Positions 3,701-58,491 of a stretch of DNA of 64,000 nt are shown in pieces. Source of the stretch: Dysidea avara (lineage: Eukaryota > Porifera > Demospongiae > Dictyoceratida > Dysideidae). The notes under the pieces are model-generated. The model was not told the origin of the DNA. It made no database searches and was given only the letters and a program-made list of their open reading frames with translations. Every line of letters begins with the position of its first letter. The first letter of the stretch is position 1. The position numbers and the translations under genes were made by a program. The stretch lies in assembly GCF_963678975.1 (NCBI RefSeq), contig NC_089279.1:34291297-34355296 (forward strand), read 5' to 3'.

Positions 3701-6700
3701 CATGGAGCAATTCTTGCAGCGGTGTGTGGAGAACAACATTACACTGAACATAGAGAAGTGCCAGTTCTTTAAAGCTCAAGTCACCTTTGCAGGCTTTCAG
3801 CTATCATCACATGGATACAAAGTAGACCCCCCATCTATCACAGAAGCAATTACCAAGTACCCTACACCTACAACCAGGTCCGACTTGCGCTCCTTCATGG
3901 GTCTAGTCAATCAACTGTCAATGAGCACCCACACTCTGGCATCACTGTTGACGCCTCTCAGACCACTGCTCAGCACAAAAGCACAAAAATGAATTCTTAT
4001 GGTCTAGTCATCATCAGGAAGCTTTCACAAGCATCAAGACATCCCTGACTACCTCACCACTGGTGTCTTTCTTTGACATGACCACACCGACAAGGTTAAG
4101 TACGGATGCCAGTAAACAAGGCCTCGGATTTAATCTACAACAGAAGACTGGAGATGAATGAAACCTGGTCCAAGCAGGATCTCAATTCTTATCTGACGCA
4201 GAAACACGATACGCAGTGATTGAACGCAATTTTCGCACCTCCGTAGCTCTGTGCTGCCTTGATGAAACGAGACGATTTTTGCTGTGGACATTCCCTCCAA
4301 CTTCAGTACTCCACATTCCAAATTTGAGCGAAATCGCTTCAAGTGTTCCCAAGATATGCGACTTCAAAAGTTGGCTTAGTTTCTTGGTGTTTTTTTTCTT
4401 CTTATTTTTCTTCCTCTTTTCGCACACTTACAAAAACCGCTATAAAACGCGAACGCAATATCCGATTGCCTTGAAATTTGGCACACAGAAGGGGGGTATA
4501 AAGGCACATCTCTGTACCAACTTTGGCTGGAATACGATAAACAGGCAAAAAGTTATGAGCAATTATCCACGAAAAATAACACCAATATGTTGTCACGCCT
4601 ACAGGGTAAACCGCTTATGAGAAGAAACTGAAAATCGGTGGGTGAATAGGTTAACTATTGAACCTCAAACCTTTTGTGGTTTGAAAGAAATCGAGTTAAA
4701 AACCAGGAAGATACAACGAAAAACCAACAGTCTGTAACAATTATGCAATCGAGATTAACTAATAAAAAAACGAATACTTTCCACGCCCACCAGAAAAACC
4801 GTTTGGAGTAATACTTTGAAATTCGCTGTACAGATGGAGTAATCATCTTAGAAAGGATCTTCAATGGTGTAGAAGAATCAGACTTAAAGCCACGGAGTTA
4901 TAACACGAAATCAAACTTGGTGTAGCAAGTGCGAGATCGAGATACTCTAATAGAGCAGTCACCCTAATAGAGCAGTCACACTGAACAGAATTCAAAAGAT
5001 CAGCTAGAAACTAGTAACCTGTATAGAGATAAGCTACAAACAATTCACCCTGTACAGATATCAGCTAGAAGAAGTTACCTCGTAGGGAGTTCAACTACGT
5101 AGTTCAGCTAGAAGAAGTCACCTTGCAGAGAGTTCAGCTACAAAGAAACCACCATGTAGAGAGTTCAGCTACAAACAAATCGCCCTGTAGAGGGATCAGC
5201 TAGAAGAAATTACCCTGTACAGAGTTCAGCTACAAAGAAACCATCATGTAGATAGTTCAGCTACAAACAAATTACCCTGTAGAAAGATCAGCTAGAAGAA
5301 GTCACCTTGTAGAGAGTTCAGCTACTAACTAGTGACACTGTAGAGACATCAGCTAGAAGAAGTTACCTTGTAGAGAGTTCAGCTACAAACAAATCATCCT
5401 GTAGAGAGATCAGCTAGAAGAAGTTACCTTGTAGATAGTTCAGTTACAAACAGTTCACCGTGTAGAGAGATCAGCTAGAAGGACTCACCTTGTAGAATGT
5501 TCAGTTGCAAAGAAACCATGCACCATGTAGAGTTCTGATCTGTAATAAATATATGTATTATATATATATATAATTTGTACATTTGTGACTGAATTTGACA
5601 AAACCCGGCTTCGACGCACAAAATTTCGTTAGGAGATATGGCGATTTTAAGTAATCATTGTGTAATAACTTCCCAGTGCCTACAGCTGTGCAAACAAAAT
5701 TTGCACCAAGTATGCATCTATTTACTAGCTATGACTGAGTGGGTGTATACATTTCTGATACCCAAAATTAGCCCTGTTTTGGGCAGCTTTTCTCGAGTGG
5801 GTAATAATATCACAGGTGATAGTAATAGGGTGGGAGGGTGGGGGTGGATGGTGGTCTTAATATACGGGTATAAAATGGAGTAAGAAGACGATTGGAATCC
5901 AGAGGCCAAGTTTGGGCTCTCCATGGCCCTCAAATCACTCCAAATTGACCGAGAACACTATTGATGAGCTCTCTGTGAAGTCCCAGCTCACTACACACCA
6001 TTATCACAAAGCCATGGCCATTCAATGGCGCCAATCTCCCACTCGTGGCTTTGACAGGGTCGGAAGAAAGCTGCCACAGAAACCAGACTTGCCAGTCCTG
6101 AAGGAAATACAGTGTGGAATGTGATAGTGTATTAGGCCAGCAATCCATTTCTGGTAAAAACGTAAGTTTGATTTTGTGTGTGTGGAAGCCTTGTTATGTG
6201 AAATCCGGTCACATTTAATATTAAGAGAGGCATCACGTGAGATCACGTGATCTAACAATACTACAGTTAGCTTGTTTGGCTGCCTCTTGCTACTCCTTGT
6301 GTTCCATGGGTTGGTAATAAAGTGTGGGCCTGTTTTCAAGCGTCAATTGGTAAGTTACACTTTATATGGGCTATAATGTAATATTAAGAGAGGCATCACG
6401 TGAGATCACGTGATCTAACAATACTACAGTTAGCTTGTTTGGCTGCCTCTTGCTACTCCTTGTGTTCCATGGGTTGGTAATAAAGTGTGGGCCTGTTTTC
6501 AAGCGTCAATTGGTAAGTTACACTTTATATGGGCTATAATGTATTCATGTGTGACTGAATTTGACAAAACCCGGCTTCGACGCACAAAATTTCGTTAGGA
6601 GATATGGCGATTTTAAGTAATCATTGTGTAATAACTTCCCAGTGCCTACAGCTGTGCAAACAAAATTTGCACCAAGTATGCATCTATTTACTAGCTATGA

Positions 6701-9700
6701 CTGAGTGGGTGTATACATTTCTGATACCCAAAATTAGCCCTGTTTTGGGCAGCTTTTCTCGAGTGGGTAATAATATCACAGGTGATAGTAATAGGGTGGG
6801 AGGGTGGGGGTGGATGGTGGTCTTAATATACGGGTATAAAATGGAGTAAGAAGACGATTGGAATCCAGAGGCCAAGTTTGGGCTCTCCATGGCCCTCAAA
6901 TCACTCCAAATTGACCGAGAACACTATTGGTGAGCTCTCTGTGAAGTCCCAGCTCACTACACACCATTATCACAAAGCCATGGCCATTCAATGGCGCCAA
7001 TCTCCCACTCGTGGCTTTGACAGGGTCGGAAGAAAGCTGCCACAGAAACCAGACTTGCCAGTCCTGAAGGAAGTACAGTGTGGAATGTGATAGTGTATTA
7101 GGCCAGCAATCCATTTCTGGTAAAAACGTAAGTTTGATTTTGTGTGTGTGGAAGCCTTGTTATGTGAAATCCGGTCACATTTATTGATAAAATCAGAAAT
7201 ATTTAAAGTATTCATATGCTTCATCTTTTCTTCTTTCCTGAGGAAAAGAAAATATGATTGGTTTAAAAAAGCCCCAAAGCTGGCCATAGGTCAGCTCCAG
7301 CTTTGGGGTATACAAATACAAAAAGAAGTGAAATCTAATCCAAAACAGCCAAGCTGTAAAAAAAGAGTGCGCCCTCAAAAAGGCTATGGTGAAAAAGATG
7401 TGAAATCCAAGATGGCCAAGGCACAAAATTCACCTGAATTGTTGTTATTAAAATTTTTACCATTAACCTACCATCACAGCCATTTCTTGGTCGCCACCTT
7501 GGATTTCACATCTTTTTTCACCATAGCCTTTTGAGGGCCGCACTCTTTTTTTACAGCTTGGCTGTTTTGGATTAGATACTATATTATCTGCAAGTAGCTA
7601 TAGGCAGCTTTCTTGTTTTGCTTCTCTTTAGCTGTTCCCTTGTTTTGCTACTTTTCTTTCTTTGATCTCTAAAATTCCTTTGTTTACTATTAACATAGTT
7701 ATGACTAATAAATCCTTGCATACCACATCAAAAGAAAGAATGGCACCAGGCATGCCATAAAATTAATCTTGCATCTGAACACGCACCACAACAATCAATT
7801 ACTGAAGGTGAAGTGGTCATTACACTTCTTCAGCTATTTCTGCCCATTACACAGCATTATGCACAAAGAATAGCATGAGAAGTGTCTCTGTAATTAAACC
7901 AGTGACTACAGAAAATAAAGGCAATAAGCACAATAGGCAGCCACAAGGAAGCCGTAGCTATCGTGCTATTATGAATTGACACCTTTGCATTGTCTGTGAA
8001 AATAACTGAGATACAAAAGAGGACGAAGGTGAGTACATGATGCATGCATTGTCCATACTGTGGTATGCCAAAAAGTACTTCTCAGGCTGAAGCGACGTCT
8101 AGCAGTGACAAAATCATGCCCATAGCCTTAGCCATTATGGAGTTATTGTCTGACAGGCAGTTAGTCAGTAGAAAATCCAAAATTTAAAAAAATTCTGTAG
8201 CAACTTATTAGAAGTATATTTGGGCACTCTGAAGATGCATTTGAGCTTGAGTATTCCTCACCAATACTGCCAAGATGCCATGAAGGTATTGTGAGGCTGG
8301 TTTTGGGGTGATATTTTTGGTCAGAAAAGCCCAAACCTTCATTATCCCTAATATCTTTGAGACATTTTGTATACCACAGAAAATGTGCTACAAAGTACTA
8401 ACAAACAAGTATGTTTGACAATAGGTTTAGATATGCTGTGGTTCATGATTCAGCAGTATATCTTACCGGATTTCTAGGATATTCTGCCATTATTGGAGGA
8501 GAATGATAGTTATCTTTATACCGTTGGTCGGCTGCAGCAGGAGGAGACCATGGTTGGTTGAGTTGGTTTAGTGAAGATCTGGGATCTGGTACTTGACCAG
8601 GTATAGGAGCATAACCACCAACACTTCTAGAACAAAAAAGAGCATAATTTATGTCAATTTCTCCCTTAGATTAGTGTAAGGGACTAAGTTACGCAGCACC
8701 CACTTTCTACGTTATTTACCATCAACACGCATAAACCTATACTGGCTACTGTATTCAGACACTAGTGCTATGAACTTTCAGAGTTTACTAAAAACCGGTT
8801 ATTGGAAGGTGAATAATTGGTTATTGACTGGTTACTGTCTGATTATAGATTAGCAGACATAATGGTACTCAACATGACTGCAGGAAGCCTTACGGTAGTA
8901 CCAAAGTGACCATCAACATCCTACCTTACAATAACAGTTATTACAATCACATGCTTTGAGGTTATGTTATGATGTTAACACTTGTCAGCAGGGATAATTT
9001 ATGGTTTACCAGCAATAATTGGCTTGACCTAGACAATACCTGTTAATACTGGTTTGCAACACTGTCTGATGAGCGATAAGTTGTGCAAAGCATGTTATCT
9101 CATGATGAAAATGGCAGATAACTGAACCTTTTACTATGTCATGAAGCAAATGCCATTATCAACATTAGGGATTACAGATTTAATGATACCTACTAGGCAC
9201 AAATAACTCGCAGAAACCAATAAAAATGCACTGGTGCGTCAGTGGGCTAATGTGCATGATTAATTTTGATACACTAGGGCATTCAGAGGATTCAAAGGGG
9301 TAATTAACACAGTATTTATATAGAGAGCTGAAACTTTCATTTGTTTTTCAAATATATTTGTAATTGTACAGAAATGATCCTATATATATGAAAACTCTAT
9401 CCTAACATGGAAATAAAATGGCTGTTCTATTAGAGTATTTTATTAACAAGTCTAGGACAAACACATAAATTGTACAAAGTGAACCTGCTAGAGATGTTTG
9501 CCACAGGCTAAGAGCTCTGTACAATAATAAATCACCTCACTTCTCTACTTATCTACATGATGATTCAGGGCTTAAGAACAATGTCAATAAACAGACACAA
9601 AGCAGTTACAGTAGGTATTTACACAGTACAGTAATAGTCTACTCAGTGAGTACTGAACAATGACACACATTCACCTTTCTTGTCCTCCATGAGGATAGTT

Positions 9701-22936: not shown

Positions 22937-29718
<6,782 letters not shown>

Positions 29719-37041: not shown

Positions 37042-40000
37042 CACTACACAGAGACAACAGGTACTGTCATAGTTTTGAAAATCAATTATACTGATTCAGA
37101 AGTTGGCATGCTTTACAGGACCTTGATGGATCAACAAAAGAATTAAAAGAATGTAAAGAGCATGTCAAGACTGTAGGTGATGCTGTCGTTGCTGCATGCA
37201 AAAGCAGTGAAGGTATGATAAGACGTTTGATGACATTAGCACAAGAGAGGAAACAAAACTATGGCAGTAACAGTGAGCTAAATTCCATTCAAAGGTATGT
37301 ACACTATAATTACTACACATCTTTCACTACATACATAGAAAGCTTGTACCTTGACATTTTTGTACTCCAAATTGGCAAGTTAGATGCAAATATATGATGT
37401 GAATACCTGTCTAATCTGGTCACTGTATAATACAGCTGTTTAGACTGGCCATTGTAAAATTCCATAAGCTGATTTGTTCATGAATTGACAAATAGTATAC
37501 TCTAACTTGATAACAATAATATATTTGATGTTGCCTGATTCTGCTATTTACCTGCAAAAAAAAGGAAAGGTAAACTTCAAAGCCAGTGCGTGCTAGCCTT
37601 TGGGGTTGCAGATAGAAATGCAAAAACAGCCAAGGTATTATTTACAGTCATCAGAAACAAAATTTGAAAACGATGTACAGTAGCATCAAAAGGTGGAGAC
37701 CGAGAAATAATAGCTACTGTACATACATGCAGTGAAGCACATGTAATGACATTATTGTCAATTGACATACCGTATTTCCTTGTATAAAAGCCACATTCGA
37801 TTAAACACCTGTCTCCGTTATATGCCGGGGGTTTCCAGGATATTTGGAAAATAAATGCCTGGTCTCTAATAGAGGCCCGGTTATTACTTGAGTCTACTGT
37901 TAATGGCTTTCATTGCTTTTTCTTGTTGCTGCTGCTTCTTCATACTTGAGTGTAGAGCCTTGTGAGGGTTGAAGGTATTATGAGTAATCACATGAATAGT
38001 CCAGGAAAGTCCACGTGCATGCAGATATGACTATTTTCCAATTATTTTAAGCCTCGACTACACTTGTTTATATAGTCAACACACTCTATCACTGTTATCC
38101 TGTTCTACCACCACCACCTGAATTTAAATGCCGGGTGTCAGTCGGACCAATCCAAATAAACACCCAGTCTGAAATAAAGGCCCTATTCATTTAGAGGCTG
38201 AATCAAAAATTCTGGAAAGGAAATAAAAGCCCAGGCTTTTATACAAGGAAATACAGTAGCCATTTGATATCACACCTTATCCAAACTAGATAGCCTTGGT
38301 ACACTCGTTTTTCCACAACTTGGCTGTTTTATATTAGAATTCCATACAGACATTTTACCATATTGTGCAAGGTTGAAGCTAACAAAAGCCTGTGTAGTGA
38401 AGCAGCAGAATTAGAGGTAAAGCTAAAAGAGAAAGAGATGAAACTTGTCCAGATGGAGCAAGAGAGAAAGTCACTCACTGACAAAATTGAGCATTTACAA
38501 CTCCAAGTTGAAAGCTATGATACTGATTTTACAAATGAACGTCAAGCCAGAGAACAACTTGTATTGGATAATCAGAAACTGAAACAACATTTGAAGGAGA
38601 GAGAGCAGTTTAGTAGATATAATGATGATGTAGTCACCCAGAAGTTTGTTCGAGGCAACCTGACAAGTGATGCTAAACAACAACAATTGTAAGTAAAATT
38701 GTTGAGTACTGTACATGATAGCCAGGGGCAGTTCTAGAAAGTGTGCTGAATGGTTTCTATATCCAAAGTAGAAGAATTGGTGCTTTACCCATGGCAAAGT
38801 CATAGTCACAGGAAATCTTTCTGACATGGTGGTAAATCCAGACGTGAGGCATGATAAATACAACCCTACACATGTACGTAGCTTTAGTTTAGCTAGCCAG
38901 CTCAGTATGAGTAAACAACAATATTTTTTTTAGGCTGCAGCACATGTTGCTGTCAGACCTTCAGTGCTGGTCACTGTAAAGTGCTAATAATAATATTAGT
39001 AATTTCACAGTTGAATCTTACCATTTCAGGCCAATGCAAAAAAAGTTGAAGCCAGTTTTGAAATTATTAAAGTGATACATACATAATTATTGCACTTGAT
39101 ATACGTGAAAGTGTTGGAGAAATAATTTTGGGTGATAGTGTGACAAAATAAAGTAATTTATGAGGTTGGATCACTAAAGTTTAGATTAAATAAACTCCTG
39201 GCCGGCTGTTCTACCAGGTTGTTTTTTGATGTTATACAGCTAACCTGGTTTCCAGAAACTGGTAAACTCTGTGCCTGCTTGTTAACACAATAATAGTAAG
39301 CAGCTCATATCATCATAATACAGTTCTTAATAATATTTATGAATTGTCAGTTATTATAAAATAAGGTTTGTGCCATTATGGGATAGTTATATCATGACTA
39401 TGAGGGCGACCATCAACTGCACATTTGCTCATTTTGATTATTTTAAAATAGTTGTGATATGTTCATGCAGTTATGAGGCAATTGTCTTTACCATACCTCT
39501 ATCTTAAACACTACATTCTACTTTCAAGTCCTAGGGTAGGTCCGATAGACTTCATGGGTATTACCATTACACCAAAAGTGTAAAGTGATATCCCTCACAT
39601 AAATGTGGTGCATGATAAACTTACGTATGTGTATGGTGTACAGGGTAGGTGAGTGTATGACACTGTGTATATTGGTTAATATCCATCAGCTACTATACAC
39701 AAGCACGCTATATGCTATATACTACAGTACGAATGCATATGTGTACTATTCACAATTGATTATGAACATACAGTACTACAATGACAACTCAATACATCAA
39801 CTGTATAGCCACACAATACACTCAATGTGTGTCACATATTCACTAGGCTACCACAGGCTATACTACACTGTAGGCTTTTGTGTAACTCCGTGCACCTGAC
39901 TTCTCGTTTTACAATCTGTCGATGCTTTTATCTATTTGGCTCTACTATTTTAAGATGACAACTGACCCCATTGCTTGATTTTCTACTTCACATATGTTGC

Positions 40001-43000
40001 ACATATCAGCACTTGTATGAAGCCACCAATCTTATCTGAAGCAGTCCCTATATCATTGCAATAAATTATGTGTACAGTGGAATAAACTCCCTGAATTAAG
40101 GACATAATAGAAAGTCTCTTTAATAAGGACAAAATTTTGGTCCCAACAGGTCTGGTTAATACATTTTAGGGATCTGCAATACATATCGATATGGCAATAT
40201 ATCGATACAGCAAATAAGTATCACTGTACTTAGTAAATATCAATATATCGAAGTTTTCTAGTAGAACAGTCAGTGATTGCTCCATTACTGTAACAGTGAT
40301 GTAAATATTCAAATAGAAAGCCTCTCTGTTTACCTGTACTATAAAATGCAACGTTACGAGAAACCATACAAATATGCATGTATAAGTGCTGCTGTTATGG
40401 CTAAAATATTCTTACTAAAAACAGTAGCTGTTACACTGTAAGTGTAAAGAACTGCACCACTAAGTAGTAAACAACCTGCTGTATACACTAGCCATCTTGA
40501 CAACTCATCAAAATGTGAAGTAATCCAGACAAGCCTTTATGGGAGCATACATTAAAATGTTTGTGGTGGCTAACTGTCTGTGTGGTGTAATAGAGGCAGG
40601 TATCCAGGTAGAAATGGGCTTTTTAACAGCAACTCTGTTTTCCATACATCAGCTATTTGTCAATTCAGTATAATACTGTAGTTTATCAGTATTTACTGAA
40701 TAAGAAATTTGTATACACAGTGAATATAGAATCAGTCTCGGTTCTTTAAGATGCAGATAAATTAGATATTGTTACAACTATTAGCTAATATGCCAGTTAT
40801 AACTAGCCATGACCACTTCATTATAGTATCGTGATATAGTATCGTATCAAACAGTTTATTGATGGTGATACGTGATACACAAAATGCACTGTATCGCAGA
40901 ACACTAATACATTTTCCCAGGAAAACCTCTATATTACAGCAAAACGTGGCCTGGTTTCCAAAATGTCCAGAGGGTTCCACTGTATAAGGTGGCTATAGCT
41001 ACTGTAACTGAGATACAATATTAGGAGATTTCATGTATCACAAATTTCAGTACGTTTCTATTATTTCAGTGAACAAGTCCACGCGAAGGAACAGGAACAA
41101 CAAGAATGTCATTATGGGCTTCAAGATACCTACAAGAAAGAGTAAGTCTTCAAATTATCATAACTGGCAAGGACTTTTAGCTGTTTTTGTATAATTGGTT
41201 ATTTTAGCAAATATTGTGAAACATTGGTTAGGGGTCATCCATAATTTTCAGCATTTTCACAAGAGTACAGAGAGTACTCTTTTCCATAACCCCCTCCCCC
41301 CCACCTAAAAGCGTACTATTAAAAATGTTGATATCGATCGTGAATTGTTGTATGTATGTATGTGTGTATGTCACATATGAAATTGTTTTTAGGAGTTATT
41401 GTTGCTGTTTTTACACTGTAGGAAATGCAGACAGATCAATCACGCAAGAAGTTATTTACATGTGTGAATTTGTGTGACAGTCATATACTTATTTCTTTTT
41501 AGGTCTTCCCTTTCCCATTTTGTAATTTTGCTCAGTCTGGTGTTTCTGAAGCTGGTATTTGGTAGGATAAATTTCACCATAAACAAGACATTTTATCTCA
41601 ACTTTGGACTTCTTTGACTGTGAAGTAGATTCTGATTCCTCTCGTGACCTAGTTCCACTGTGTATCAGGCATGTGTGGCGCTCCTTGTCAGCTTCACTGG
41701 TAAAAACATAACGGAAATGTGCACATCACAGAAATGGCTATCTATTGGCTGTCTTCAATATAATGCATCAAATTATCATCAGTACTACAGCTTGAAACAC
41801 CTGTACTAACTTGCTGAGTTACAACACTTTGTACATTATCATGAGCTTCAGCACCACTACTGACGTCGTTTTCTACTGCTACAGTTTCTTCATTCACTGT
41901 GCTTGTCTGCAAAGAAAACAAGTTATAGGTAGCTGTCGTTCAATACATTGTGCAAGTCACCTATTTGTAAACACTACTTCTATAAATTAAACCGGCTATC
42001 TGGCAAGCTACAATCCTGCATGTATGAAATAGTGCTAAACCTATCAATCTAGCCATTTAGTACTGTACAGCTACGTGCTTTTAGTACAGTGAAAACAGTT
42101 TTTTACTGAAAGCGATCCTGGCTATTACCTAACATGGCCTAGTCATGGCTACCTGCATACCTAATGTACAGCTAGCTACGTGGTTTTATAGCCTGTTTAT
42201 ATATTGTACCTTGAAAAATGAATCAATACGCCTTGTCCTGCTCCACTTCAAGTGTTGCGCAGCTTTTTTCAGTGCTGCCACATAGTGCTCTTTGCTGTAA
42301 ACAACTCGCTCCTTCCACTCTATTTGCGCGCTTCACAGCATCTGCCCTCTTCATTTTCGTATCGTTCGTCACAACAAAGGCGTTCACGAAATGCTGGTAA
42401 TGATTAGTTGGTGACTTGTGTACACTATCTGGATGCCTAGCGAGTTCAAGAAGAAACTGCCTTGCCTCGAGCTGCAACTCACATTTCGCCATCTTGATAC
42501 TGAAATTGTATGCGCATGCTAAATTATTTAGAATTATTTTTATATAGCGCTACTAATATCAACATTATTAAAAAGCGTACGCATTGGATTTACCCCCTCC
42601 CCCCCAGCGTACGCTCTGTACGCTTGCGAAAATGCTGAAAATTATGGATGACCCCTTAATGAAGTAACAGAGTTAAAGGTGAAATTACAGGAGAAAGATA
42701 CAGCATTAGCTCAAATGATGAACGAGAAAAAGTCATGGAGTGAAGACATGGAAGTGTTGCGATGCCAAATTCACGATTATGGTACTGATTTTGAGGCTGA
42801 ACGCCAATCCCGAGAACAGCTTGTAGTGGTTAGTGAAACCCTGAGGCAACAGTTGAAGGAAAGAGAAGAACAGTTTAGTAAATTTAGTGATGAATTCACT
42901 ACCAACAAATTTGCTCAAGAAAGATTGGCAACAGATAACAATCAACTACAACAGCAGATTGATCGTCTGTATAATCAGTGTGAACAACTGAGGAGATCAC

Positions 43001-45522
43001 AAGAGCAAAAAGATGAGAGACTTACTCAGCTCAGTAATCAGATTTCTGCTGAAGTTCAACTCAAGGAAAGCATACTAGCTGAAAATCAAAATCTAAGAGA
43101 CGAGCTTCAGATGAAGGAATCTAAATTTTACGTATCGAACACTGCATTCAGTATTGAAAGACAACAATTCACAACAGGAACTGATAGGTTCAGCCACTCA
43201 CTAGAAGAAGCTGTGGACGTGAAACAACTACAAGTATGTACTATAATTTATGCATCAGTTGTATTTGATTTTATCTTATGTAGCTGAGTGGCCAATTTAC
43301 AAGTTTACCACCAGCTAGGTAAGCCTGTTAAATAGGCTGTGTGTACTGTAAGTGTATGTCATCTTTACTGTAGGTGTATGTCATCTTTACTGTAGGTGTA
43401 TGTCATCTTTACAGTGTTACTGTATTTAATTGGTGTACGTGTTACATTGTACATGTTAGTTTAAGACCAATTTCTATTTTTGGTGGATGATAACTTTTGC
43501 CATTTCCTTGTTTTCTGTATAATACATTCTGATGAAATAGAGATAGGTTACCCAACAATTAGTTCTGAAGCTTAGTACAGTTATCACACTGCTGCTGTTT
43601 CAGGACATCCATATACAGTATCTACGTATGTGTGTAGTTGTTGTTTGGTCAGAGATCATAACCTTTATCTGTTCCATCTTCATAGGTACAGTACTAGTAG
43701 ATTCATGTGTTTGTACAGTACGCGCAGCTCTTAATCAACATCATGTGTGTGTGTACATGTGTAGACAGAACAGTGGTGGTCAGAGAGCTGGTGCAGCACA
43801 TCATGGGCATGACAGTCAGGCACAGTATCAGCAACACCTACAATATAAAGTATGTACACAAGTCAGACACAAGTTTTTACATAGTCAAAAAAATTGATGT
43901 TCACAGAAGCTGATTTACTATAACATTCAGTTATAAGCGTCTCAGTAACCAACGCTTTATTTTTTACTCATTTTTGTTACAATAAAGGGATTTTCCCCTT
44001 CAAAGGTATAAAATGTATCTGTATCTTTCTGCTAATTTTTCTATATATTACACCCTTATATATAAAATGGTGTTTTTATCCACCCTATAACAATAATTTT
44101 GCTAGCTACCCCAATATTAGAATTTATTGTAGAGCTAAGATTCCAATGTATTCCCAAACGAGAATATTTGTAGTTCAAACATAAAAACTGGTTCTGCAAT
44201 CTTTTGCTAATCACTGTAGGCTTGATCTGCACTAAGACATAATCTGACTTTATATATTTTCTGCGACGAATAGGGTCTGGCTATACCAACAGTAGCTACG
44301 TACGATGTACCATTGCAAGTTATACGCACAGTATTTATATTAAATCATGGTGGCATCCTTGACCCCATGTGCAAGACAATCACTTGCTTAGTTCACAACA
44401 TCTTAATCATAGTTACAAACTTTAAATTAAAGGTGTGGATTTAGTGATTATGTAATTTCAAGGACTACAGTGTTAACATGTTAACACCCAAATGTCAGCT
44501 AACAGAAATGCAAGCTGACTGTTTTATTTGCTCTGTAAACAGTTGTTTGTTTATTTTCAGGTATACCTCCCCCATGTTAGTTCAGAGAATTGACTCTCAG
44601 CCCTCCGATGTATATTGGTTCAAGACATTCATAATTAAAAATTTAATCTGTATTAAGCTCAGTCTTTCATTTCCAGTATGTCAGTTAGCCATCACATCAG
44701 TGTGGTTGGTACATAAGTACACCTGAAGTCTTGAACCTCAAGCATAGTGGTGACTGCATATTCGTTTATGTATAATATGACTTTTATGACTACTGTAAGT
44801 TTTATTCATTTGCTTTGATATGTTAAGTTGTTTGCAAATGTCAAAATCTTCCTTTGTTATTATAGCCAATGGATGCTACTCCAAACCATCACAACTATCA
44901 AGGAGGACAAGATAGGTAAGCACAGTATTACTGTATGTACTGAGAACCATGGTATGGTAGACATGCAGAGAGTATTGTAGTGCTTGCATTTGCTCTTTAA
45001 ACCATGACGTAGTTTCCTTAATGGGTTTAGTTTGGTTTCTTGCATACCTATACATATGCACGCACACGCACACACACGCACACACACAAAGCAAAGCCTA
45101 TGGCAGCCATGCGAAACACAGCTATTGCTGCCCAGCGAACCAGAACTGGGATACCAGTGTGCACCACTTAGCACTTAAGCCTTGTGTAGGCAAATCCTCC
45201 TGGCGCACAACTAGTAACCCACAGGAGACTGTCCAGGTCTCATGGAGTGAGATAGTGGAATATCACTATATGAGACAAGGACAGCTGTTCCCAGTAAACA
45301 CCAAGTACCCATTGATGTTATAGCTGGTGGGCTGCTTCCCAATATACAGCTTGGTAGACTGGAGCACTGTTAGTAAAGTTTCTTGCTCAAGGCATTACCA
45401 AATTGGCATAACTGGGCATTTAACTTGGAACCTTTTTCAATGACCAGGCCAATGCTCTATATAGCCACTTGGTTATGCTGCCTAGCTACTCAGACACATA
45501 CACACATGCACGCACACGCACG

Positions 45523-45598
<76 letters not shown>

Positions 45599-46162
45599 TA
45601 CATACATACACATGCATGCATGTACGCGTGCACACTCACACAAACATACACTAACTCGCTCATTCACGTGCACATAGTGTCACATGCATGCACACGCACA
45701 ACACACACACAAAGCAAAACCTTCAGCTTCCAAGTTAGCTACCCAGTGAACCAACACTGGGACACCTGTGCGCTACTTAGGTGCTAGGAGTCAACACAGG
45801 AAAATCCTCCTGGAGCAGGACTAGTAACCCCACAGGAGGCTGTACCATCTCCCCACAGGTGAAGGTGTGGGCAACTGAAGTCCCACCTGGACCTTCATCC
45901 GTTGTGTGAGACATGGACAGTTGCCATTTAATACCAGGTACCCATTGATGTTACAGCTGGGTGGGCTGTTGACACCCGGCCACCAGGTCCCCCACTTAAA
46001 CAGCTGGATAGACTGGAGAAGTGTAAGTAAAGTTTCTTGCTCAAGGAAACAACAACACCAATTTGGTGTGACTGAGCATCAAACCGGAAACCTTTCAATT
46101 ACCAGGCTGATATCAATGCTCTAGCCACTTGGCTATGCTGCCTCACAACACACACACACACG

Positions 46163-46195
<33 letters not shown>

Positions 46196-48670
46196 ACACC
46201 CTGCTATATCCTTTTACAGGAATGCTGGTGGATATCACCATATACCTGGACCAGCACAAGACCCAAGATCACCACCACCAAATCAAATGTGCAACCCATG
46301 GTCTCCTCCAGCTAGCCAAATTAATCAGCCAAATTTTGGTGCTCCACAACATCAGGTGAATTTTTATTTGTGTGTTTACCTTCGATAGGTCTGTACTTGA
46401 AATTAAACCAAATTAACCCATTACGTTATGAAAATAACTTACAGTCCTTCTGCAGGGTTTTGAAGTCATGCTGTACAATCATGTTTCCATGAGAGAGATG
46501 TTCTGACAATGTGATGAACTGTTTCTTTTAGAAGCTGTTGATACTTTCCTACATGGAGATATCTGATGAAGTAAATACTTCATTCTAGTATGCGCATAGA
46601 CTCAAATAGTTGTGTCCCAAAAAGTGACCAAGGAAATATTAGACAAAATATCATTTTTTACTGTTTTACAGATTCATCTGTAAACCAAACAAATAAGAGT
46701 AATATACACTGTTAGAGAATTTTTCGCTAAAGCTACAGGTTTGATTTCTTCACTTACTTTTGGCCTGAGGCATGCTTTTCACCACCTGCAGCAGCTACAG
46801 TGTGCACAATGCATGCATCATTTGTCCTCCTTTGTGTCCTCTCCACTACTGTATAGCTAGGTGTTGATTGCAGTAATGTGTCATGTAGTTTCAGTGCTTT
46901 ATTTCCATAGCATGACTGGATTCATTGCAGAAGTACTTCATGTACTGGTGTAACAGGTGGAACATAGCTGAGACTGAAGCAGAATGGCCACTTTTCTTTC
47001 AGTGTGATTGATAGTCAGGGCGTACACTCAGCTGTAATTTCCTTAATGTTTTAATACTGTAAAACAGGTAGGGCCACCCAGAAAATTTAAAGGCCCAAGG
47101 CAAGGAGTTAAAATCAGGCCCCATATATAATTAAGGCTTATCTAGTGATTGATCATGCCAGAGTCTGGACCATGGTCTATCTAGGGGGCATCATGCCCCC
47201 CCTCCCCTCCAGGAAAGTTTTGAAAAAAATAATGCACTGAAATTGAAGGGTATTTAAGAGTCTCAATTCAAGAAATTCATGAATTCTAATGTCAGTAATT
47301 ACTACAGCTATATAGTTGTGTTTGTAGAATATTGCTTTAAACAAACTACTGATTTTTCTACAGGCCAACACATGTACAAATTGTGCAGTTTTAGCTATAA
47401 TAGCTCTCCTAATATGTATGTATGCCTGTATATTTGTTTTTGAAAAAGATGTTCTATTAGGTTACATGTCATAGCTACACATATTAACTATACATGCATA
47501 CAATTGTACATATAGTATAACTGCATGAACAAAATGGTAGGGTTATTTTGCTTCCTTGTTTTAGCTGCCTTCCTATTAGTTAGTTTCCAGTTTTCTATTC
47601 TTTACTTCTTTGCATTTCTTTTTGCAGAACTGGAGGGGTAACTAGTACATTTAAAAGTTGACACAAAGAAAATAAAAGTTTACTACACTATTTATATCAC
47701 TTGCTATGTTACATAGGGCTACACTCAAACAACTGACATTTTAGCTGTATAGCTATCTACCAGAAAGTAGAGCACATTACATGGCATACAGCTACAAAGG
47801 GTTACTTACTTACAAAAGGAACACACACATATATAATTATAGTATCACACTGCAGGCTTCAGTAAAGAAGGCTTTAGTTATCATGTTGCTGGCAGGTTGT
47901 TTGACTTTCAGTTGAAAAGTTATGTAATCACAATGCTATATAGTTAAACATCAAATTATAATTGCATTGATTAGGCACAAAACTGTGGCCATAATTATTA
48001 TGAGTCATGGCTCATGCATATATGGACGCCTGCTGACACCAACACCAAGTGCTTCTTTTGAACATTGAGGATGTGGGCAGATGCCAAAGTGTGTACAGAA
48101 ACATAACAAAAAAGACTCAGCAGAAACATAATAAATTGACTTCTGAAACTGCATAGCTAATTAAAAGAATCCCCCTGAGGCCTCTAGCAGGCTTTAATTT
48201 TTACGACATATCTGGTGCCGTTCTTGAAAAATTGGAAGGTTTACATTTGAGTAGGAATCGTAGAATTAAAATGCAATGAAACAAGGGAGGTCATCTACAC
48301 CTGCAGTTATATGTAGTGGACATTTAATTCCTATACTTCAGTCATGACTGTACTATTGACAAAGCTGTAAGTAGGAATTACCTCGTGTCATTGCTTTTTC
48401 TTTCTGTAACCCCTATAACTCTAATGTAAAATTTCCTATTTTCCTTATAGTTGTAGTGTATGTTACGTTATGTGTTTGTGGGTTGCATTTTTCCAGTCAC
48501 CATTTGGAGGACGAGAGCAGCCATACAGACAGAGATCTGGTCCACTGGAAGCTAGTGGTGGTGGTGGTACTAACAGTGATCCTTGTCCAATGTGTCTGAA
48601 GAGATTTGCTAACTACGAGCAATTAGTGATACATGCAGCTACTTGCAACTATGATCCCTCTGCTCACTAA
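29940..48670 (+). CDS. IKBKG/OPTN-like: Gene B: NEMO/optineurin-like protein with two UBAN motifs, interrupted by a transposon
   Basis: Untranslated leader exon ending at 30028, then coding exons 34989-35034, 36590-36882, 37119-37294, 38350-38688, 41070-41141, 41208-43233 (broken by an element at 41231-42655), 43284-43318, 43765-43849, 44866-44915, 46220-46355, 48497-48670. Phases agree at every junction. Leaving out the element and one TTA, the exons total 2,004 nt, or 667 residues: Ser/Pro-rich start, ELKKLLEECTKKV helix, UBAN 1 (about 224-242), coil, UBAN 2 (about 353-371), coil, Gly/Gln/Pro linker and CCHC finger (about 640-660). Two UBANs in one chain is unusual for the family. In this haplotype translation runs into the element and stops at 41242-41244, giving about 320 residues with UBAN 1 only. 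All exons after the insertion remain intact, so the insertion looks recent or polymorphic. Confidence 0.75.
30478..30822. mobile_element. MITE with CAGTGG termini
   Basis: The left end CAGTGGACTAAACCTGGGCC and right end TACAAGTCTAGTTACGCCACTG are imperfect inverted repeats. It is bounded by CA tracts on both sides and lies in gene B intron 1. Confidence 0.55.
31421..31752. mobile_element. TTA-flanked element (GGCCAGGCAAACTTGATT family), copy 2
   Basis: Ends GGCCAGGCAAACTTGATTAA and AGTCAAATTTTCCTGGCC, flanked by TTA. It is shorter than copy 1 because it lacks the nested MITE. Confidence 0.7.
32238..32918. mobile_element. MITE with GGGGCCAAGTAC / GTATTTGGCCC termini
   Basis: Inverted ends about 680 bp apart, with dense AAGTACTTGTAC words at both ends and a unique centre. 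Confidence 0.65.
32993..33070. repeat. TG microsatellite
   Basis: About 78 bp of perfect TG that served as the insertion target of the adjacent hAT-like MITE. Confidence 0.95.
33072..33475. mobile_element. hAT-like MITE (TAGGGCTGAGCGATAC family)
   Basis: Ends TAGGGCTGAGCGATACT and AGTATCGCTCAGCCCTA are perfect inverted repeats. Both flanks are GTGTGTGT, an 8-bp duplication inside the TG tract. Confidence 0.88.
33550..33940 (+). mobile_element. tRNA-derived SINE
   Basis: The head resembles a tRNA gene: box A-like TAGCCAAGTGGCTAGAG and box B-like GGTTCCCAGTTCGATGC (33583-33599). An unrelated body follows, shared with copies at 45088-45484, 45711-46144 and 27028-27265. The 3' end is TG/CA-rich. 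It lies in gene B intron 1. Confidence 0.8.
34989..35034 (+). CDS. Gene B first coding exon
   Basis: Acceptor ATGTACAG directly before ATG; encodes MSEAGSDENLALSHS plus one base, donor TCAG|GTTGAT. Length 46 nt and phase 1 are identical to the exon at 62185-62230, which supports both. It joins in phase 1 to 36590. Confidence 0.65.
36267..36349. mobile_element. 83-bp palindromic MITE
   Basis: TAGTCTCGTGCCCAGAC pairs with GTCTGGGCACAAGACTA around A/T-rich runs. The flanks carry a perfect 9-bp duplication AATGGGTGC. Confidence 0.8.
36590..37294 (+). CDS. Gene B coding exons 2 and 3
   Basis: Exon 36590-36882 starts REFTSGSPYNSS, then SLSPDNSLQSSILAPLESAI and the helix DELKKLLEECTKKVKD, donor CAA|GTAAGT. 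Exon 37119-37294 starts DLDGSTKELKECKEHVKT and ends SNSELNSIQ, donor AG|GTATGT (phase 2). Both align with gene C exons 2 and 4. The intron between them carries an 80-bp CA tract. Confidence 0.75.
36964..37038. repeat. CA microsatellite
   Basis: About 75 bp of CA in a gene B intron. Confidence 0.95.
37768..38258. mobile_element. MITE with TACCGTATTTCCTTGTATAA termini
   Basis: Ends TACYGTATTTCCTTGTATAA and its inverse are about 25 bp long; several GCCYGG..TAAA blocks repeat inside. It lies just before the UBAN 1 exon of gene B. Confidence 0.75.
38350..38688 (+). CDS. Gene B exon with UBAN 1
   Basis: Acceptor CCATACAG, phase 2 in; donor TT|GTAAGT, phase 2 out. It encodes 113 residues. UBAN 1 at 38504-38560 is QVESYDTDFTNERQAREQL, with Asp-Phe, Glu-Arg and Arg-Glu all present. 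The exon is a shortened relative of gene C exon 7: similarity stops after EREQFSRYNDDVVTQKF, where a donor has arisen. Confidence 0.75.
40075..40982. mobile_element. Tc1/mariner- or pogo-like MITE (CAGTGGAA ends)
   Basis: CAGTGGAAT... and ...GGGTTCCACTG with TA on both sides. It contains a complete second element at 40167-40906, so only about 170 bp are its own. Confidence 0.65.
40167..40906. mobile_element. hAT-like element nested in the CAGTGGAA element
   Basis: Starts TAGGGATCTGCAATACATAT and ends CTGTATCGCAGAACACTA, flanked by a perfect 8-bp duplication ATACATTT. Its ends are distant relatives of the TAGGGCTGAGCGATAC family. Confidence 0.78.
41231..42655. mobile_element. 1,425-bp TTA-flanked DNA transposon inside a gene B coding exon
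   Basis: Terminal inverted repeats start GGGGTCATCCATAATTTTC, are perfect for 28 bp and continue imperfectly to about 50 bp (AGTACAGAGAGTAC against CGTACAGAGCGTAC). Both sides are TTA (41228-41230 and 42656-42658). C-rich runs lie just inside each end. A 3-bp TTA target fits the PIF/Harbinger superfamily, but no transposase is visible. The minus strand carries a decayed multi-exon gene. The element may be non-autonomous or a deletion derivative. Confidence 0.88.
41489..42492 (-). pseudogene. Decayed gene carried inside the TTA-flanked transposon
   Basis: Three open segments on the minus strand. From ATG at 42492: MAKCELQLEARQFLLELA onward; the frame appears to shift near 42325, after which a second frame continues through HYVAALKKAAQHLKWSR to RIDSFFK at a donor (AAG|GTACAA, 42208). 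An acceptor TTTGCAG near 41908 opens TSTVNEETVAVEND onward. A third segment from 41696 is Ser/Lys-rich, has a single-finger-like CLVYGEIYPTKYQLQKH and ends GRPKKK before TAA (41489-41491). The basic tail suggests a nuclear protein. I do not recognise the family. Confidence 0.5.
43284..46355 (+). CDS. Gene B linker exons
   Basis: Exons 43284-43318 (LSGQFTSLPPA, 35 nt like gene C's 26884-26918), 43765-43849 (QNSGGQRAGAAHHGHDSQAQ), 44866-44915 (PMDATPNHHNYQGGQD) and 46220-46355 (NAGGYHHIPGPAQDPRSPPP ... PWSPPA). All borders are AG/GT. The last three match gene A exons. The region is probably disordered and joins coil to zinc finger. Two SINE copies lie in the intron before the last of these exons. 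Confidence 0.75.
43347..43415. repeat. About 24-bp tandem repeat, three copies
   Basis: CTGTARGTGTATGTCATCTT repeated three times in a gene B intron. Confidence 0.8.
45088..45484 (-). mobile_element. SINE copy, reverse orientation
   Basis: Reverse complement of the SINE at 33550; ends TAGCCACTTGGTTATGCTGC (box A inverse). A CA tract precedes it. It lies in the gene B intron between 44915 and 46220. Confidence 0.75.
45515..45600. repeat. CA microsatellite
   Basis: About 80 bp of CA between two SINE copies. Confidence 0.9.
45711..46144 (-). mobile_element. SINE copy, reverse orientation
   Basis: Reverse complement of the SINE at 33550; ends CTAGCCACTTGGCTATGCTG. It is followed by another CA tract (46147-46199) about 20 bp before the gene B acceptor at 46219. 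Confidence 0.78.
48497..48670 (+). CDS. Gene B terminal exon with CCHC zinc finger
   Basis: A 174-nt exon after TTTTTCCAG; starts SPFGGREQPYRQRSGPLEAS and ends CNYDPSAH then TAA. The finger at 48584-48646 is CPMC-x12-HAATC. About 70 percent of residues match the gene A exon by eye. There is no sign of decay, although the upstream insertion should prevent its translation in this haplotype. Confidence 0.85.
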   Translation, partial: SPFGGREQPYRQRSGPLEASGGGGTNSDPCPMCLKRFANYEQLVIHAATCNYDPSAH

Positions 48671-52553: not shown

Positions 52554-55500
52554 AAAACACAATAACAACACACACACACAATAACAACACACACACAATA
52601 ACAACACACACAATAACAACACACACACAATAACAACACACACACAATAACAACACACACACAATAACAACACACACACACAATAACAACACACACACAA
52701 TAACAACACACACACAATAACAACACACACACAATAACAACACACACACACAATAACAACACACACACAATAACAACACACACACACAATAACAACACAC
52801 ACACACAATAACAACACACACACAATAACAACACACACACAATAACAACACACACACAATAACAACGCACACACAATAACAACACACACACAATAACAAC
52901 ACACACAATAACAACACACACAATAACGCACACACAATAACAACGCACACACAATAACAACACACACACAATAACAACACACACAATAACAACACACACA
53001 CAATAACATCACACACAATAACAACACACACACAATAACAACACACACACAATAACAACACACACACAATAACAACACACACACAATAACAACACACACA
53101 ATAACAACACACACACAATAACAACACACACACAATAACAACACACACACACAATAACAACACACACACAATAACAACACACACACAATAACAACACACA
53201 CACACAATAACAACACACACACAATAACAACACACACACAATAACAACACACACACAATAACAACACACACACAATAACAACACACACACAATAACAACA
53301 CACACAATAACAACACACACACAATAACAACACACACACAATAACAACACACACACAATAACGCACACACAATAACAACACACACACAATAACAACACAC
53401 ACAATAACAACACACACACAATAACAACACACACACACAATAACAACACACACACAATAACAACACACATAATAACAACACACACACAATAACAACACAC
53501 ACACAATAACAACACACACAATAACAACACACACACAATAACAACACACATAATAACAACACACACACACAATAACAACACACACACAATAACAACACAC
53601 ACAATAACAACACACACACAATAACAACACACACACAATAACAACACACACACACAATAACAACACACACACACAATAACAACACACACACAATAACAAC
53701 ACACACACAATAACAACACACACACACAATAACAACACACACACAATAACAACACACATAATAACAACACACACACAATAACAACACACACACAATAACA
53801 ACACACACAATAACAACACACATAATAACAACACACACAATAACAACAACACACAATAACAACACACAATAACAACACACACACACAATAACAACACACA
53901 CACAATAACAACACACACACAATAACAACACACATAATAACAACACACACAATAACAACACACACACAATAACAACACACATAATAACAACACACACACA
54001 ATAACAACACACACACAATAACAACACACACACACAATAACAACACACACACACAATAACAACACACACACAATAACAACACACATAATAACAACACACA
54101 CACAATAACAACACACACACACAATAACAACACACACACAATAACAACACACATAATAACAACACACACACAATAACAACACACACACAATAACAACACA
54201 CACACACAATAACAACACACACACAATAACAACACACACACACAATAACAACACACACACAATAACAACACACATAATAACAACACACACACAATAACAA
54301 CACACACACAATAACAACACACACAATAACAACACACATAATAACAACACACACAATAACAACAACACACAATAACAACACACAATAACAACACACACAC
54401 ACAATAACAACACACACACAATAACAACACACACACAATAACAACACACATAATAACAACACACACAATAACAACACACACACAATAACAACACACACAC
54501 ATAATAACAACACACATAATAACAACACACATAATAACAACACACACACAATAACAACACACACACAATAACAACACACACAATAACAACACACACACAA
54601 TAACAACACACACACAATAACAACACACACACAATAACAACACACACACACAATAACAACACACACACACAATAACAACACACACACACAATAACAACAC
54701 ACACAATAACAACACACATAATAACAACACACACACAATAACAACACACACACAATAACAACACACACAATAACAACACACACACAATAACAACACACAC
54801 AATAACAACACACACACAATAACAACACACACAATAACAACACACACACAATAACAACACACACACAATAACAACACACACAATAACAACACACACACAA
54901 TAACAACACACACACAATAACAACACACACACAATAACAACACACACACACAATAACAACACACACAATAACAACACACACACAATAACAACACACATAA
55001 TAACAACACACACAATAACAACACACACACAATAACAACACACATAATAACAACACACACACAATAACAACACACACACAATAACAACACACACAATAAC
55101 AACACACATAATAACAACACACACACAATAACAACACACACAATAACAACACACACATAATAACAACACACATAATAACAACACACACATAATAACAACA
55201 CACATAATAACAACACACACAATAACAACACACACACAATAACAACACACACATAATAACAACACACACAATAACAACACACACAATAACAACACACACA
55301 CAATAACAACACACACAATAACAACACACATAATAACAACACACACACAATAACAACACACACAATAACAACACACACAATAACAACACACACACAATAA
55401 CAACACACACACAATAACAACACACATAATAACAACACACACACAATAACAACACACACAATAACAACACACACAATAACAACACACACAATAACAACAC

Positions 55501-58491
55501 ACACACAATAACAACACACATAATAACAACACACACACAATAACAACACACACAATAACAACACACATAATAACAACACACACACAATAACAACACACAC
55601 AATAACAACACACACAATAACAACACACACAATAACAACACACACACAATAACAACACACACACAATAACAACACACATAATAACAACACACACACAATA
55701 ACAACACACACAATAACAACACACACAATAACAACACACACACACAATAACAACACACACACAATAACAACACACACAATAACAACACACACAATAACAA
55801 CACACACACAATAACAACACACATAATAACAACACACACAATAACAACACACACACAATAACAACACACACACAATAACAACACACACAATAACAACACA
55901 CACACAATAACAACACACACAATAACAACACACACACAATAACAACACACACACAATAACAACACACACACAATAACAACACACACACACAATAACAACA
56001 CACACAATAACAACACACACACAATAACAACACACATAATAACAACACACACAATAACAACACACACACAATAACAACACACATAATAACAACACACATA
56101 ATAACAACACACATAATAACAACACACACACAATAACAACACACACACACAATAACAACACACACAATAACAACACACACAATAACAACACACACACAAT
56201 AACAACACACATAATAACAACACACATAATAACAACACACATAATAACAACACACACACAATAACAACACACACACACAATAACAACACACACAATAACA
56301 ACACACACACAATAACAACACACACAATAACAACACACACAATAACAACACACACACAATAACAACACACACACAATAACAACACACACACACAATAACA
56401 ACACACACAATAACAACACACACACAATAACAACACACACAATAACAACACACACACAATAACAACACACACATAATAACAACACACACACAATAACAAC
56501 ACACACAATAACAACACACACATAATAACAACACACATAATAACAACACACACACAATAACAACACACACACAATAACAACACACACAATAACAACACAC
56601 ATAATAACAACACACACACAATAACAACACACACAATAACAACACACACAATAACAACACACACACAATAACAACACACACACAATAACAACACACATAA
56701 TAACAACACACACACAATAACAACACACACAATAACAACACACACAATAACAACACACACACAATAACAACACACACAATAACAACACACACAATAACAA
56801 CACACACACAATAACAACACACACACAATAACAACACACACAATAACAACACACATAATAACAACACACACACAATAACAACACACACAATAACAACACA
56901 CACAATAACAACACACACAATAACAACACACACACAATAACAACACACACACAATAACAACACACATAATAACAACACACACACAATAACAACACACACA
57001 ATAACAACACACACAATAACAACACACACACACAATAACAACACACACACAATAACAACACACACAATAACAACACACACACAATAACAACACACATAAT
57101 AACAACACACACAATAACAACACACACAATAACAACACACATAATAACAACACACACAATAACAACACACACACAATAACAACACACACACAATAACAAC
57201 ACACACAATAACAACACACACAATAACAACACACACAATAACAACACACACAATAACAACACACACATAATAACAACACACACAATAACAACACACACAC
57301 AATAACAACACACACACAATAACAACACACACAATAACAACACACATAATAACAACACACATAATAACAACACACACAATAACAACACACACAATAACAA
57401 CACACACAATAACAACACACATAATAACAACACACACAATAACAACACACACACAATAACAACACACACAATAACAACACACACAATAACAACACACACA
57501 CAATAACAACACACATAATAACAACACACACAATAACAACACACACAATAACAACACACATAATAACAACACACACACAATAACAACACACACACAATAA
57601 CAACACACACACAATAACAACACACACAATAACAACACACATAATAACAACACACACAATAACAACACACACACAATAACAACACACACACAATAACAAC
57701 ACACACAATAACAACACACACACAATAACAACACACATAATAACAACACACACACAATAACAACACACACACAATAACAACACACATAATAACAACACAC
57801 ACACAATAACAACACACACACACAATAACAACACACACAATAACAACACACACACAATAACAACACACATAATAACAACACACACACAATAACAACACAC
57901 ACACAATAACAACACACACAATAACAACACACACACACAATAACAACACACACACAATAACAACACACACACAATAACAACACACACACAATAACAACAC
58001 ACACAATAACAACACACACACAATAACAACACACATAATAACAACACACACACAATAACAACACACACAATAACAACACACACAATAACAACACACACAC
58101 AATAACAACACACACAATAACAACACACACACACAATAACAACACACACAATAACAACACACACACAATAACAACACACATAATAACAACACACACACAA
58201 TAACAACACACACACAATAACAACACACACACAATAACAACACACACAATAACAACACACACACACAATAACAACACACACACATAATAACAACACACAC
58301 AATAACAACACACATAATAACAACACACACACAATAACAACACACACACACAATAACAACACACACACATAATAACAACACACACAATAACAACACACAT
58401 AATAACAACACACACACAATAACAACACACACACAATAACAACACACACACACAATAACAACACACACAATAACAACACACACACACACAC
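52554..58491. repeat. 5.9-kb variant-unit satellite, AATAACAACACA(CA)n
   Basis: About 370 units of roughly 13 to 19 bp made of AATAACAACACA plus a variable number of CA. Variants are not spread evenly: GCACAC units occur only from about 52865 to 53360, and ACATAATAAC units only after about 53465. A block with AACAACAACACACAATAAC near 53840 recurs near 54357, about 518 bp later, pointing to segmental duplication inside the array. The minus strand lacks stop codons in the unit, hence open frames of over 1,800 codons that are not genes. Confidence 0.95.

Follow-up and report, generated by a model that had tools for sequence, protein, structure and literature searches.

A very young DNA transposon, probably a Zator-type element, in a UBAN exon of a NEMO/optineurin-like gene of the sponge Dysidea avara

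NEMO combines a UBAN with a C-terminal zinc finger, according to a passage in PMC10245932. Among cut-and-paste transposons, Zator and ISAzo13 both make 3-bp target-site duplications, as stated in a portion of PMC10045372, and the two are paired with each other in that portion and in an excerpt of PMC5718144. Zator is derived from TP36 in a passage of PMC7386202, and it is described as rare, occurring among molluscs in bivalves only, in the relevant part of PMC10294476. The duplication made by PIF/Harbinger elements is given as 5'-TWA-3' in an excerpt of PMC4482050.

Here we describe a locus in which a gene of the first kind is broken by an element of the second. The window is the whole stretch of 64,000 nucleotides of Dysidea avara that was analyzed, and all coordinates refer to it unless a locus label is given. 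We suggest, with a probability of about 0.87 for the reading as a whole, that an internally deleted, non-autonomous DNA transposon of the cut-and-paste type, most likely Zator, was inserted very recently at a TTA in the second UBAN exon (UBAN 2) of gene B, a member of a linked group that has at least four NEMO/optineurin-like copies. The literature on sponge optineurin, Harbinger and Zator contained no report of this locus among the matches listed.

The element, its ends and its copies in the genome

The preliminary description of this DNA had proposed a transposon at 41231-42655 within a coding exon of gene B. The inverted ends, the TTA on both sides and the near-identical copies elsewhere in the genome bear this out. 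The features of the element are as follows.

41231..42655, minus strand (the strand of its decayed gene): non-autonomous Zator-like transposon, 1425 bp (inverted ends, genome copies, alignment)
41228..41230, no strand: left target-site duplication, TTA (sequence; identical TWA flanks at other copies)
42656..42658, no strand: right target-site duplication, TTA (sequence; flanks of other copies)
41231..41280, plus strand: left terminal inverted repeat (arm comparison)
42606..42655, minus strand: right terminal inverted repeat (arm comparison)

The element starts with GGGGTCATCC and ends with GGATGACCCC. The inverted arms, 41230-41280 and 42606-42656, show 92% complementarity along their 51 nt, with mismatches at 4 of the 51 bases, and their outer 28 nt are identical. 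A Pfam search of fragments from the window element returned nothing useful, and the exact 19-base end sequence had no match in the viral contigs and none in the genome contigs of the viral and prokaryote collections, which says little.

The 550.8-Mb host assembly (108 contigs) was searched for the element, and 40 of the 461 first-look candidates were scored, so that the copy counts are lower bounds. The element occurs in at least 34 other places. Of these, 32 were fetched with their flanks (L009-L040), and the partial matches at C3:21373627 and C13:12966547 were left out. The 3-bp flanks are identical in 31 of the 32 fetched copies, TTA in 19 and TAA in 12, the exception being L027; with the window copy included, a 3-bp TWA duplication is present at 32 of the 33 copies examined. 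At least 22 other copies measure 1388-1425 bp, near the length of the window copy, and were aligned with it. The nearest, L034 and L035, differ from the window copy at 2 positions in 1425 bp, L036 and L037 differ at 3, and the farthest of the 22 differs at 95. The printed flanks of the five nearest copies, about 40 bases on each side, are unrelated, and these copies are therefore separate insertions. The existence of near-identical copies with unrelated flanks rules out chance as an origin of the element.

Only one substitution in the 1425 bp is private to the window copy in the alignment with the 22 others. Together with the copies that differ at 2 positions, this single private base makes the window insertion very recent, in line with the recent age that had been proposed. 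The mismatches between the two ends, taken alone, could suggest some age, but the nearest copies are near-identical over all 1425 bases, so the mismatches are shared and predate the insertion.

The open reading length across the joined insertion site was compared with base shuffles at 33 sites, using flanks of 200 bp, or just under 100 at about half of the sites. The window copy gives 89 codons, a length attained in 3 of 100 shuffles; the values are 92 for L014 (0 of 100) and 83 for L035 (6 of 100). Since L014 and L035 resemble the window copy in this respect, open length alone is no proof of an exon; the comparison with the paralogues, given below, is. L014 (C6:26532428-26533460), a member of the same family, is possibly a second coding-exon insertion, given the 92 open codons of its joined flanks.

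Other features of the window and the genome were also recorded. At 52557-58486 a 17-bp unit (ACACAATAACAACACAC) is repeated in tandem about 363 times, and the windows from 54001 to 58000 within this array have a GC skew of -1.000, meaning that there is no G on the plus strand. Two stretches of 649 bp within 5569-7183, 99% identical and 966 bp apart from start to start, mark a recent local duplication. COX1 gave 21 matches on nine contigs (L062 among them), several with in-frame stops, and there are many nuclear copies of mitochondrial DNA. In a nuclear COX1 copy, TGA stands for Trp and AGA/AGG for Arg at sites that we assume to be conserved, and we take this to be mitochondrial code 4, which points to a sponge, cnidarian or placozoan.

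The broken frame of gene B and the linked paralogues

The exons of gene B, with the stop brought by the element and the corresponding exon of paralogue A, are listed below.

38338..38688, plus strand: predicted gene B exon with UBAN 1 (CC2-LZ) (Pfam, frame reconstruction)
41070..41141, plus strand: predicted gene B exon just upstream of the interrupted one, with a phase 2 donor (frame reconstruction)
41208..41230, plus strand: 5' portion of the interrupted UBAN 2 exon, one TTA included (joined frame, comparison with gene C)
41242..41244, plus strand: premature TAA stop supplied by the element (frame; position counted on the sequence)
42656..43233, plus strand: remainder of the interrupted exon, with UBAN 2 (CC2-LZ) (Pfam, PDB match, joined frame)
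43769..43849, plus strand: predicted downstream exon of gene B, open (frame reconstruction)
44866..44915, plus strand: predicted downstream exon of gene B, open (frame reconstruction)
46220..46355, plus strand: predicted downstream exon of gene B, open (frame reconstruction)
48497..48670, plus strand: predicted last exon of gene B, with C-terminal C2H2-like finger and stop (Pfam, frame reconstruction)
26202..26832, plus strand: corresponding UBAN exon of paralogue A, without interruption (homology comparison)

The upstream exon runs to 41141, where the donor reads ...AAAGA|gtaagt; the acceptor AG that follows is at 41206-41207, and 23 bases lead from there to the end of the TTA. When the flanks are joined with one TTA, a single open frame results, DKYCETLV|NEVTELKVKLQEK..., whereas with the element present the frame reads ...DKYCETLVRGHP (...ETLV-RGHP) and then stops. 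The predicted exons that follow, over 42658-48670, keep one frame through the finger to the stop. It had been claimed that the frame is split from its upstream half exactly at the TTA duplication, that the element brings an immediate stop, and that all later exons are intact, and each of these points holds on reexamination. The intact later exons had also been read as a sign of a perhaps heterozygous allele. They are explained by the youth of the insertion alone and say nothing on heterozygosity. A search of the assembly for the joined 24-base empty site gave no match; no empty allele was seen, and the assembly shows a single locus.

The UBAN 1 exon, the small exon 41070-41141 and the UBAN 2 exon also share one frame when the flanks are joined, and gene B is therefore likely to be a single gene with two UBANs. 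The CC2-LZ family (PF16516, cut-off 35.3 bits) is reached by UBAN 2 (37.7 bits), by UBAN 1 (37.0 bits) and by paralogue A (35.8 bits). Furthermore, UBAN 2 matches NEMO structures in the PDB (best E 1.2e-5), and UBAN 1 found no solved structure there at E 0.01. The C2H2-type match of the gene B finger is below the cut-off (16 vs 25.2 bits), and the last exon keeps CPMC...H...C. Gene B thus resembles NEMO and optineurin in the CC2-LZ scores of both its UBAN exons and of A, in the match of UBAN 2 to NEMO and perhaps in the finger-like C-terminal exon. It differs from them in having two UBAN exons and in lying among at least four linked places with a UBAN exon on one chromosome, UBAN 1 not counted. 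The UBAN 1 exon has the look of an internally duplicated UBAN exon; since both its ends are in phase 2, its addition need not have disturbed the frame.

The same exon can be followed in the paralogues. The clearest comparison is with gene C. It lies just past the end of the window (L060, about 3006), and its exon has the same phase, reads (D)RDVERLSNELAELKV with no insert, and is of equal length up to ELKV. Around the junction, B and C are identical at 13 of 23 bases before it and at 18 of the next 21 bases after it. Paralogue A has five extra residues at the start of the exon and again no insert, and all five of its examined exons are open. The gap between the two exons is 47 bp in A and 57 bp in C. 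Because the exon is found in both A and C in this uninterrupted form, the insertion lies inside a coding exon and is absent from both paralogues. The downstream exon of B was found in four places in the assembly, namely this copy and three diverged paralogues.

The other members of the cluster vary in condition. The UBAN exon of gene C (L060, about 3006-3605) has a frameshift after ...ELKV, about 16 codons in, and is then open, making it a second damaged copy. Gene D (L060, about 8200-8900), the fourth UBAN copy, has several stops and frame changes and is apparently a decayed pseudogene. On the minus strand, 551-721 is 69% identical to the finger exon of gene B, which indicates a further related gene in opposite orientation.

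Was gene B already a dying duplicate, so that the insertion landed in a pseudogene? The frameshift and stops in the linked copies C and D would fit such a history. However, joining the flanks leaves the B exons open and consistent in phase all the way from UBAN 1 through the final exon, and for the UBAN 2 exon the pairwise dN/dS values are 0.27 (A-B), 0.32 (A-C) and 0.41 (B-C). The A-B and B-C values show that the exon has long been under constraint, with the qualification that pairwise dN/dS averages over old time and would not register a very recent release. We regard prior decay of gene B as unlikely.

Consequences for the gene B message

The insertion lengthens the exon to about 2 kb and places an in-frame stop after ...ETLV-RGHP. 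A stop ahead of several downstream exon junctions is ordinarily expected to cause nonsense-mediated decay. Four predicted junctions follow the stop in gene B, which favors decay of the mRNA, and the message would then be a target of this pathway. The allele should thus be a strong loss of function, with most of the mRNA decayed or mis-spliced, and any protein that is made would stop after UBAN 1, lacking UBAN 2 and the finger.

Splicing might instead tolerate the insertion, if the enlarged exon were skipped or a cryptic acceptor past the element were used, to give an in-frame protein with its finger. The upstream exon does end in phase 2, and the exon that follows could be entered at either of two acceptors separated by four bases (43765/43769), of which the one before 43765 is in frame by eye (GA|A CAG AAC), but skipping would need that alternative acceptor as well. 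As for a cryptic site, the AG before 42741 would join in frame without a stop and preserve the UBAN core; however, it is preceded by a purine-rich tract (CGAGAAAAAGTCATGGAG), and it is the sole in-frame, stop-free acceptor in a scan of 41150-42830. Rescue by splicing is therefore, in our judgment, distinctly unlikely.

The preliminary description had gone further, proposing a one-UBAN, finger-less form that could act as a competitor. A stable protein of this type, competing for ubiquitin chains, would require polyadenylation inside the element or escape from decay. The truncated frame does retain UBAN 1, which is over the CC2-LZ cut-off, and the plus strand of the element has three ATTAAA hexamers, at 41318, 41986 and 42567, with no AATAAA found there. 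Three ATTAAA should be no surprise in 1425 bp of AT-rich DNA, and UBAN 1 lacks, at E 0.01, the solved-structure match that leads from UBAN 2 to NEMO. Since the stop also precedes the four predicted junctions, such a competitor is possible but very unlikely.

It can also be imagined that the tandem UBAN cluster is being dismantled again and again, each time at the UBAN exon or close to it: in B through a transposon allele that segregates, in C through the frameshift and in D through several lesions. Loss, or the truncated one-UBAN product of B, would then be favored because it rewires ubiquitin-dependent, NF-kB-type signaling. We give this very little credence. The cluster looks like the ordinary birth and death of tandem copies, and selection for loss is possible but unproved. 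The insertion itself is real, young and gene-breaking, and the kind of event is common.

Long copies, the transposase and the transposon family

Two copies are much longer than the others discussed here, L009 (3747 bp) and L010 (3755 bp). They have unrelated flanks and are 6 substitutions and three gaps apart. Each carries transposase exon 1 (MAEREL...CIDSFFK) as one continuous frame. In L010 the open frame of transposase exon 2 spans 917 codons; in L009 it spans 868 and begins at residue 50, after a frame change near the exon start; of the two long copies, only L010 has a fully open transposase gene. The window element is 92-93% identical to the ends of L009 and L010, and about 2.3 kb of the middle is missing, the catalytic part included. 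Two remnants of the gene are left in it.

42210..42492, minus strand: remnant of transposase exon 1 (MAKCEL... / ...RRIDSFFK), frame-shifted in the window copy (two frames vs one in L009/L010)
41489..41906, minus strand: remnant of transposase exon 2, its catalytic middle deleted, with a degenerate C2H2 tail ending KGRPKKK (comparison with long copies)

The window copy is thus an internal-deletion derivative that cannot make a full transposase. Presumably it was moved in trans: to judge from its anatomy, a transposase of longer relatives elsewhere in the genome would have acted on the inverted ends and left the 3-bp duplication.

For the 917-residue exon of the long copy, Pfam's PF07592 (ISAzo13) scores 14.8 bits (E 0.014), a weak match that stays below the cut-off of 26.9. 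We take PF07592 to be TP36 (Bao et al. 2009). Two relatives of the long-copy transposase, L047 and L049, share 61% and 67% identity with it, and their scores of 26.9 and 27.0 bits barely attain the PF07592 cut-off. In a PF07592 scan of the sponge's own genome, three places passed the cut-off, all of them outside the window element's own family; among 14 control genomes, one gave a signal and none passed the cut-off. A tblastn search of the transposase against plasmids returned four records only, at E 0.2-0.4, and is uninformative.

A putative DD43E triad, D481, D599 and E643, is invariant across three aligned relatives, with 43 residues between the last two, and these residues may well be catalytic. 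The available portion of PMC8533490 gives no residue spacing for Zator, and DD43E is therefore not taken as proof of membership; no literature match paired Zator with DD43E. The relatives at the PF07592 cut-off and the 3-bp TWA duplications do point to Zator, and the element is most likely a member of this superfamily rather than of PIF/Harbinger. The window family has in common with Zator the 3-bp target duplication, a putative DDE triad and perhaps a transposase of the PF07592 kind, the cut-off of which is just reached by relatives. It may differ in the extra N-terminal exon and C-terminal C2H2 fingers of the long copies, and the window copy lacks the catalytic part. A PIF/Harbinger origin, with which the TWA duplication also agrees, is hardly tenable, as the 917-residue exon found no Harbinger-type transposase domain in Pfam at E up to 10, relatives of the transposase match PF07592 instead, and the second, DNA-binding ORF usual in most autonomous PIF/Harbinger elements has no counterpart in L009 and L010, where every frame of at least 80 codons, apart from the two transposase exons, is antisense, overlapping or end-spanning.

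We therefore keep to a young, Zator-like insertion that breaks the UBAN 2 exon of gene B. It cleanly exemplifies how an adaptor gene of the NEMO/optineurin type in a non-bilaterian animal is broken by a young, non-autonomous transposon, and the genome also holds a candidate for the autonomous partner. The locus would allow tests of whether the family is still mobile and of whether the tandem gene copies are dispensable.
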